DNA of 64,000 bases, from the NCBI RefSeq assembly GCF_013085545.1, contig NZ_CP039543.1:434001-498000 (forward strand). Direction: 5' to 3'. Numbering within the stretch: the first letter of the stretch is position 1; each line of letters starts with the position of its first letter. The stretch comes from Oceanidesulfovibrio marinus. GTDB lineage: Bacteria > Desulfobacterota > Desulfovibrionia > Desulfovibrionales > Desulfovibrionaceae. A model generated the notes under the pieces. That model was not told the origin of the DNA, ran no database searches, and saw only the letters and a program-made list of their open reading frames with translations. Both the position numbers and the translations under genes were made by a program. Below are positions 9,166 to 35,062 of the stretch, one piece after another.

Positions 9166-9292
9166 CAGGCTGATGAGAAGCACCGCTGGTTGCGCTGCTG
9201 CAGACAGTTCAAACCCTTACGTCACCTGTATGCGCGTCGGCATTGAACTTCGTTGTGCGCCTTGCCAGCGTGATGTTTGAACAGCCTGCCGG
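9164..9292. repeat. Long palindromic repeat element, copy 1
   Basis: The element is about 129 bp and begins in the stop codon of the alpha subunit gene. The arms CAGGCTGATGAGAAGCACCGC and (reverse complement of the right end) CAGGCTGTTCAAACATCACGC are followed by matching CGCTGG and AGTTCAA blocks. The sequence folds into an imperfect hairpin of roughly 55-60 paired positions, centred near CGTCACCTGTATGCGCG. Copy 2 lies after the beta subunit gene and shares arms and core (GCGTCGGC.TTGA.CTT). It may be a dispersed REP-like or MITE-like unit, or a transcript-processing hairpin. Confidence 0.75.
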
Positions 9293-10195: not shown

Positions 10196-10326
10196 CAGGC
10201 AGGCAGGTGAAATTTCCACGCCGGCGGCGTTGCTTCGAAAAGATCAAATCCTCACGTATTGTATGTACGCGTCGGCCTTGATCTTTTCTTGCGCTTTGCC
10301 GGCGCGGTTTTTCACCAGCCTGCCGG
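10196..10326. repeat. Long palindromic repeat element, copy 2
   Basis: The element is about 131 bp, starting directly after the TAG of the beta subunit gene. The left arm CAGGCAGGTGAAA...CGCCGGC...GAAAAGATCAA mirrors the right arm (reverse complement CAGGCTGGTGAAA...CGCCGGC...GAAAAGATCAA) around a core containing CACGTATTGTATGTACGCG. It matches copy 1 in arms, core and placement at a stop codon. Confidence 0.75.
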
Positions 10327-10370: not shown

Positions 10371-10402
10371 GCGGCTCCTTCCACTCGGGGGAGCCGTTTT
10401 TT
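10371..10402 (+). terminator. Rho-independent terminator after the oxidoreductase operon
   Basis: The stem CGGCTCC / GGGAGCCG is followed by TTTTTTG. It comes after palindrome copy 2, so the palindrome itself need not be the terminator. Confidence 0.8.
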
Positions 10403-10506: not shown

Positions 10507-10631
10507 TATTACTGGGAGCAGAAAATACATGCATTTTCGCTCTCCAGTTATAAGAACTGCCCCGCCCAGGCGGGGCCAAACGGCGAATGCCGCAAGAGCG
10601 CAAAGTTAATAACTTTCTGCTCGGAGTAATA
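10507..10631 (+). ncRNA. Structured repeat element, copy 1 (candidate cis-RNA or MITE)
   Basis: This is a 125-nt region ending three bases before the ATG of the DsrE-like gene. The outer pairing is TATTACT / AGTAATA. Inner hairpins are CTGGGAGC..AAAAT / ATTTTCGCTCTCCAG, GCCCCGCC / GGCGGGGC, GGCG-AAT-GCC and GAGC..AAAGTTA / TAACTTT..GCTC. A second copy with the same layout lies ahead of the Nudix gene at 34421. It matches no riboswitch class that I recognise. Confidence 0.55.
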
Positions 10632-10633
10632 CC

Positions 10634-10981
10634 ATGTCGAAGTTCGCACTGTTTCCGTTTCGCGGCGAGCCTCTGTGCTTCATCCACGTGCTGCTCAACG
10701 TTCTGGATATGAATGAGCGCGGCCACGAGGCGATCATCGTGCTGGAGGGGGAGTCCGTCACGCTGGTGGCCAAGATGGCCCAGGAAGGGCACATGCTGCA
10801 TCCGCTCTATGTAAAGGCCAAAGACAAGGGGCTCATCGCCGGGGCGTGCAAGGCGTGCTCGGCCAAGCTGAAAGCAACCGATGCCGTGCTGGCCGAAGGG
10901 CTGCCGCTCCTCGAAGGCATGAGCGGCCATCCATCCATGGCCGAGTATGCGGAGAAGGGGTACGCCATCGTAACATTCTGA
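10634..10981 (+). CDS. DsrE-like small protein
   Basis: The protein has 115 residues. The start MSKFALFPFRGEPLCFIHVLLNVLDM and the pattern GHEAIIVLEGESVTLV...LKATDAVLAEGLPLL...YAEKGYAIVTF fit the DsrE/DsrF fold of small proteins linked to sulfur transfer. One or two Cys (CKACSAK, about residues 73-76) lie near the position of the persulfide-carrying Cys of some DsrE proteins, but the assignment is by overall pattern only. It directly follows a structured repeat element and is single, with a terminator 140 bases downstream. Confidence 0.65.
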   Translation: MSKFALFPFRGEPLCFIHVLLNVLDMNERGHEAIIVLEGESVTLVAKMAQEGHMLHPLYVKAKDKGLIAGACKACSAKLKATDAVLAEGLPLLEGMSGHPSMAEYAEKGYAIVTF

Positions 10982-34250: not shown

Positions 34251-34381
34251 TGATATTACTGGGAGCAGAAAATACTTGTATTTTCGCTCTTCAGTTATAC
34301 GAACGGCCACGCCTCGGGCGGGGCCTCGCGGCGAATGCCGCAGGAGCACGAAGGTAACAATTCTGTGCTCCGAATAGTATC
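34251..34381 (+). ncRNA. Structured repeat element, copy 2 (candidate cis-RNA or MITE)
   Basis: The element is 131 nt with the same plan as copy 1 at 10507-10631. The outer pairing is TGATATTA / TAGTATCA. The hairpins are GGGAGC..GAAAATAC / GTATTTTCGCTCT, GGCC.CGCC / GGCGGGGCC, GGCG-AAT-GCC and GGAGCAC / GTGCTCC. Base changes in stems relative to copy 1 largely keep pairing (for example GAGCAC/GTGCTC). It ends 39 bases before the Nudix start. Confidence 0.55.
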
Positions 34382-34420: not shown

Positions 34421-35062
34421 ATGACCAATATTCCAGATGATGCGCCTGTGCCGCCGTGGCTGGAGTGGGCGCGCGAGATGCAGGCAATGGCCCAGACCGG
34501 CCTGACCTACGCCAAGAGCCATTACGACGAGGCGTTGTTCAAGCGTTTCATGGAGATAGCGGCCGAGATGACGGCCATGAACAGCCAGCTCGACCGCGCG
34601 ACCGTGGAAGAGGTCTTCCTGCTGCAGCCCGGTTACGCCACGGTAAAGGTGGACGTGCGCGGGGCCGTGATCCGCGAGGGCAAGGTGCTGCTGGTGCAGG
34701 AGCGCATGGACGAGAAGTGGTGCCTGCCCGGCGGCTGGGCCGACGTGGGCGAGTATCCCTCGTGCATGGTGGAGCGCGAGATTTTCGAGGAGAGCGGCGT
34801 GCGTGCGCGGGCCAGGCGGCTGGTGGGGCTGTACGACGCCAACCGCAAGGGCCGGCCCATGGAGTTCTTCCACGCGTACAAGGCCGTGTTCATCTGCAAG
34901 GACCTGGGCGGAGAGCCGCACTCCAGCGACGAAACCCTGGACGCCGCCTTCTTTGACTTCGACGACCTGCCGACTCTGTCCGAGAATCGCACCAACGCAG
35001 CCCATCTGGCCGAGGTTCGCAAGCACCTTGACGATCCCGGCCGGCCGGCCGCTTTCGACTAG
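34421..35062 (+). CDS. Nudix hydrolase with N-terminal helical domain
   Basis: The protein has 213 residues. Residues 1-70 form the helical NUDIX_N-type extension (WLEWAREMQAMAQTGLTYAKSHYDEALFKRFMEI). The Nudix box GGWADVGEYPSCMVEREIFEESGV (GX5EX7REUXEEXGU) lies at about 106-128. The close pattern is that of ADP-ribose or X-linked nucleoside-diphosphate pyrophosphatases. It would hydrolyse nucleoside diphosphate derivatives in the cytoplasm. The ribosome site is weak, and a structured repeat sits in its 5' region. The octaheme cytochrome follows after 24 bases. Confidence 0.9.
   Translation: MTNIPDDAPVPPWLEWAREMQAMAQTGLTYAKSHYDEALFKRFMEIAAEMTAMNSQLDRATVEEVFLLQPGYATVKVDVRGAVIREGKVLLVQERMDEKWCLPGGWADVGEYPSCMVEREIFEESGVRARARRLVGLYDANRKGRPMEFFHAYKAVFICKDLGGEPHSSDETLDAAFFDFDDLPTLSENRTNAAHLAEVRKHLDDPGRPAAFD

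Follow-up and report, generated by a model that had tools for sequence, protein, structure and literature searches.

The locus studied here raises the question of whether a hairpin-rich sequence lying immediately upstream of a DsrE-like gene in Oceanidesulfovibrio marinus is a cis-regulatory RNA or a mobile hairpin element, two possibilities between which the original prediction did not choose. The window, that is, the whole stretch of 64,000 nucleotides that was analyzed, contains two full-length copies of this sequence, both of which were recovered by a covariance model (CM R1). Copy 1, with the hairpin order H1-H2-H3-H4, occupies positions 10507..10631 (+), as predicted, and was identified by BLAST and by CM R1 (115.7 bits). 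Copy 2, found in the leader of a NUDIX hydrolase gene, occupies positions 34254..34379 (+; 118.5 bits) rather than the predicted 34251-34381. Each copy is ~126 bp long, and the two are ~80% identical. The original prediction had proposed folding both copies and searching other Desulfovibrionaceae with a covariance model. Both copies proved far more stable than their dinucleotide shuffles (z-scores of -5.5 for copy 1 and -5.6 for copy 2, with 0 of 200 shuffles as good), and the four-hairpin fold was preferred when copy 1 was folded in its own sequence context. As had been stated from the sequence, no known riboswitch is present: an Rfam scan of the window returned nothing at the element, the sole gathering-level match being a tRNA.

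The anatomy of the element was reconstructed from an alignment of 32 copies from six genera. In copy 1, the four serial hairpins, all on the forward strand, are (i) hairpin 1 at 10507..10552 (TATTAC...GTTATA), within which the left terminal inverted repeat lies, (ii) hairpin 2 at 10559..10576 (GCCCCGC/GCGGGGC), (iii) hairpin 3 at 10581..10592 (CGGC GAAT GCCG), and (iv) hairpin 4 at 10594..10624. The right terminal inverted repeat overlaps the 3' arm of hairpin 4 and extends to 10631. Two-sided changes were observed at 7 pairs of helix 1 and 6 pairs of helix 4, and 99% of the cells of helix 3 are paired. Together, the four hairpins show two-sided changes at 14 pairs and in 63 cells, a level that was reached by none of 500 shuffles, and slid controls gave at most 14 cells; RNAalifold, applied to the alignment, returned the same four hairpins unaided. 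The consensus of the element in the sister species is TATTACTGGGAGCAGAAAATTCTTACATTTTCGCGCCCCAGTTATAAGGACGGCCACGCTCCAGGCGGGGCCACGCGGCGAACGCCGCGGGAGCAAGAAGTTTAAAATTTCTTGCTCCCAGTAATA. Its two ends make up an inverted repeat of 14 bp, of the near-palindromic type TATTAC.. / ..GTAATA, which in the consensus of genome G001 reads TATTACTGGGAGCA...TGCTCCCAGTAATA. Pairing of these terminal repeats is the outer stem that had been predicted to enclose the four hairpins, and it showed no covariation beyond that of the shuffles (208 of 500). The outer stem competes with hairpins 1 and 4 for the same arms; thus, the hairpins of the predicted structure stand, and its combination of an outer stem with four inner hairpins merges two alternative folds.

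The repeat family is modular. In the sister genome, shorter forms include single hairpins, either hairpin 4 (45 bp) or hairpin 1 (46 bp), as well as an H4-H3-H4 arrangement of ~90 bp; a related hairpin of 44 bp is also present, and all these short forms start with TATTAC. The variants of the element retain structure and not a reading frame. The covariance model also scores the reverse strand of the element (e.g., 46 bits in locus L127, and likewise in L217, L122, L180 and others); since the element is palindromic enough to produce such scores, the strand assignments of weak copies should be treated with care.

Copy numbers differ strongly among related genomes. In the window genome (4.76 Mb, one contig), 8 copies were matched at the DNA level and 9 by the covariance model. 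The proposed covariance-model search, run on eight genomes of the family including that of the window, gave copies in seven, with CM R1 counts of 9, 116, 120, 24, 7, 7, 2 and 0; the genome with 116 copies is that of the sister species, a genus mate, the genome with 120 copies (G006) belongs to another genus, and the counts of 24, 7, 7 and 2 come from four further genera. DNA matches were obtained in 10 of 199 genomes of the family, representing 8 of 44 genera, and three of these are short partial matches only. A degenerate pattern searched in 84,980 species, a collection from which records close to the window genome may be omitted, was found in only two deltaproteobacterial MAGs, one of them titled Desulfovibrionaceae. 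No match was obtained in the IMG/VR viral contigs or in the phage and plasmid collections, and the literature searched contained no account of a repeat of this kind in Desulfovibrio. The family is a newly bounded one, and it shapes many intergenic regions of Desulfovibrionaceae.

Insertion occurs at TA with exact duplication of the TA, as shown mostly in one nested context of a single genome, G043, where 5 of 9 inspected copies are centered in a different palindromic repeat. The empty site, CGTATCAAAGAA-TA-CGCGAGGG, becomes CGTATCAAAGAA-TA-TTACCC...CAA-TA-CGCGAGGG when filled; correspondingly, the host repeat reads CGTATCAAAGAATACGCGAGGG when unfilled and CGTATCAAAGAATATTACCC...CAATACGCGAGGG when filled. 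The presence of several G043 copies in the same host repeat may reflect the spread of a composite. TA was also observed at the starts of 55 of 63 copies in G001 and 46 of 51 copies in G006, and at the ends of 52 of 63 and 43 of 51 copies, respectively. A second, unrelated family of palindromic intergenic repeats, with the core GCCGACGCGTA...TACGCGAGGGTTTGA, occurs in the window, with cores at 10244-10276 (-; whole repeat ~10219-10325) and 9209-9241 (-). This second family is also found near several element copies in the window genome and in G043, and it hosts insertions in the latter.

On the sequence evidence, the element is very probably a non-autonomous, TA-targeting MITE of ~126 bp that carries four serial hairpins and inserts with duplication of TA. 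It is short (<500 bp), non-coding and multi-copy, and it has terminal inverted repeats, a target duplication and a presence that varies between relatives, as is generic for MITEs; it occupies tens to more than 100 intergenic positions in some Desulfovibrionaceae and few or none in others. It is thus a new family of the ordinary MITE class and not a new riboswitch. Copy number, TA duplication, an intergenic location regardless of gene orientation and non-shared loci uphold the mobile half of the original prediction, and the RNA class was not borne out. The combination of TA duplication with terminal inverted repeats points to an IS630/Tc1-mariner-type DDE transposase, and the element would have been mobilized in trans by such an enzyme, now lost or located elsewhere. 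The hairpins would be maintained as DNA palindromes and not as an RNA that senses a ligand, either through recognition by the transposase or through the correction of quasi-palindromes when DNA is copied. After insertion, copies would be incorporated into leaders, stop codons and 3' ends.

Searches for a transposase covered several families. An IS630-type partner (PF13358) was absent from the seven genomes searched, in which the controls gave matches. DDE_Tnp_1 matches were few, and none has element-like ends. Whether lone terminal-repeat matches in the sister genome mark the ends of a larger transposon was considered and rejected, as they adjoin ordinary genes or represent short or decayed hairpin variants. 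Y1 transposases (PF01797) were not found in six of the seven carrier genomes, including those with 116, 24 and 9 copies; the two matching proteins are both encoded in G006, with no element copies near either, and the better one lies beside a TnpB-like ORF. A RAYT/Y1 partner was rejected on these grounds. The G006 locus at C156:52-405 (L086) contains an IS200/IS605-like TnpA gene followed by the TnpB-like ORF and is unassociated with repeats.

The genomic context of the element was determined for 64 copies with context called, using genes predicted by codon usage. All but one of these copies (63/64) are intergenic; 24 are tandem-sense, 14 are tandem-antisense (antisense to both neighbors), 15 are divergent and 10 are convergent, and the distance to the start of the sense gene varies from 2 to 1167 bp. 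At the loci compared, positions are not shared between relatives. In the sister species, the gap orthologous to that of the NUDIX gene is empty, and the DsrE gap contains a copy at a different site, directly where the upstream gene stops and 165 bp from dsrE. No element was found at the DsrE orthologues in 28 loci of other genera or at the NUDIX orthologues. In this sister-species gap, which is flanked by a porB-like gene and the DsrE gene, the start of the copy (L180, 1210-1335) overlaps the upstream stop codon. Several copies begin at, or a few bases from, a stop codon, which suggests that insertion into TA is tolerated at stop codons.

Some of these features would also fit an intergenic structure that is kept by the host after spreading, such as an mRNA stabilizer, a bidirectional terminator or a site for nucleoid proteins; a comparable idea has been proposed for some BIMEs and ERICs, and it is compatible with a mobile origin. 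The almost exclusively intergenic location, the retention of pairing despite sequence change and the copies at or near stop codons speak for such a role. However, the sister species differ in copy number (9 vs 116) and do not share positions, the intergenic bias can be explained by purifying selection against gene disruption alone, and the consensus has no T run after hairpin 4. We thus regard host retention as unlikely.

A different mobile system, in which the hairpin unit itself is recognized, appears improbable. Here, 45-bp modules of the form TATTAC-hairpin-GTAATA would be joined into elements of 1, 2 or 4 hairpins and would duplicate TA, and their transposase would belong outside the tested families. 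If true, such a system would join a REPIN-like modular, structure-recognized substrate with a DDE-like target duplication.

Somewhat more doubtful is an element of the REP/REPIN type, with REP-like terminal hairpins; a Y1 (HUH) tyrosine transposase (RAYT) that recognizes a hairpin and its flank would mobilize the set in the form of single-stranded DNA. The solo hairpins and inverted pairs give the family a modular appearance expected of REPs, the covariation resides in hairpins and not in linear inverted repeats, and the copies are intergenic. Against this, Y1_Tnp is missing in six of the seven carrier genomes, the two G006 proteins lack an adjacent copy and the better one is IS200/IS605-like, and TA is duplicated upon insertion, whereas movement of the IS200/REP type produces no target duplication.

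The evidence for RNA function was evaluated from the pattern of substitutions. Selection on a transcript of one strand should produce more G-U than A-C combinations among private one-sided changes; the counts were similar (G-U 86 vs A-C 70, p 0.23), and thus no RNA strand is favored. A cruder G-U/A-C count over all cells is driven largely by a few pairs whose mismatches are fixed in a subfamily. Covariation in a palindrome does not require selection on RNA and can also result when quasi-palindromes are corrected or when the DNA hairpin itself serves as a substrate; therefore, the covariation of this element is no evidence for a riboswitch here. The significant covariation on which the original prediction made an RNA class depend was indeed found (63 cells, 0 of 500 shuffles), without preference for an RNA strand, and the further copies have no fixed relation to gene starts, the placement that the same prediction had set against that class. 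A class of cis-regulatory leader RNAs, riboswitch-like or protein-binding, for the DsrE-like, NUDIX and other genes is highly improbable: although both window copies are sense-upstream of a gene, the four-hairpin structure covaries strongly and tandem copies show a slight sense excess (24 vs 14), the convergent and antisense copies, the wide range of start distances, the orthologous loci where the element is missing or elsewhere in the gap, the solo hairpins and chimeras, and the balance of G-U and A-C all argue against it, and the element does not keep its place and direction upstream of orthologous genes. Placement already refutes the class, and individual copies could have gained an effect. 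A leader with strong hairpins and covariation cannot on those grounds alone be called a riboswitch.

The dsrE copy illustrates how a MITE insertion may be combined with the signals of a neighboring gene. The DsrE/DsrF-like gene (10634..10981, +; PF02635, E 8.8e-5) lies outside the element, whose end is close to the ATG at 10634, as predicted, with two bases between them instead of three. The right end of the element includes GGAG at 10623..10626 (+), 7 nt before the ATG, a candidate Shine-Dalgarno motif by sequence. Other aligned copies have no GGAG at that place, and the sister species carries a sequence of its own, CTCGGAGGGAATACCCATG. Copy 1 may therefore supply the ribosome-binding site of dsrE or have merged with it, which for this one copy would be an accident of position; it is a minor case in which a mobile repeat may have provided such a site. 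At 10371-10397, a strong hairpin that resembles a terminator and has a T run separates the upstream pyruvate-ferredoxin-oxidoreductase-like genes from the element, and thus dsrE probably has its own transcript, with the element included. The NUDIX gene next to copy 2 (34478..35062 as called, +; PF12535 and PF00293) is likewise outside the element, and translation probably begins at an in-frame ATG ~55 bp upstream of the called start.

Four described repeat systems come closest to the element. CIR repeats of Caulobacter and Brucella are ~110 bp long and strictly intergenic, with a two-arm structure and GANTC motifs (PMC2229807). They resemble the element in length, location and the presence of separate hairpin arms instead of one end-to-end stem; in contrast, terminal inverted repeats are absent from CIRs, which have two arms, whereas this element has such repeats and four hairpins. 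The REP/REPIN/BIME systems with RAYT consist of modular palindromic units (PMC3116915, PMC3733652) and share with the element its palindromic modules, solo or in inverted pairs, and the intergenic location. Unlike in these systems, no RAYT exists in six of the seven carriers or adjoins a copy, and TA is duplicated. The alignments contain a conserved TATTAC and no GTAG or CGTC tag at the hairpin foot; given the absence of both RAYT and tag, the element is not filed as a REPIN.

RUP of Streptococcus pneumoniae is a MITE of ~107 bp that is mobilized by IS630-Spn1 and has 108 intergenic copies (PMC2229807). Both RUP and the element have a TA target and terminal inverted repeats and insert into other repeats or mobile elements, but an IS630 partner whose ends match those of RUP is resident alongside it, and none was found for this element, which is thus not filed as an IS630-derived MITE and resembles those in TA targeting only. 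ERIC (IRU/RU-1) is a 127-bp intergenic repeat of enterobacteria with TA ends, a target duplication and no known transposase (PMC2229807, PMC10969869). The contrast between 9 copies in the window genome and 116 in its sister makes a clear case for seeking the transposase, a question shared with ERIC. The likeness to ERIC concerns size (~127 bp), TA ends and imperfect palindromy, together with target duplication, intergenic location, tens to hundreds of copies and strong differences between species. Unlike in ERIC, four separate hairpins covary here and the end-to-end stem does not, and one- and two-hairpin forms also exist. By analogy, the element would work as ERIC and RUP do, that is, as TA-duplicating intergenic MITEs of 107-127 bp.
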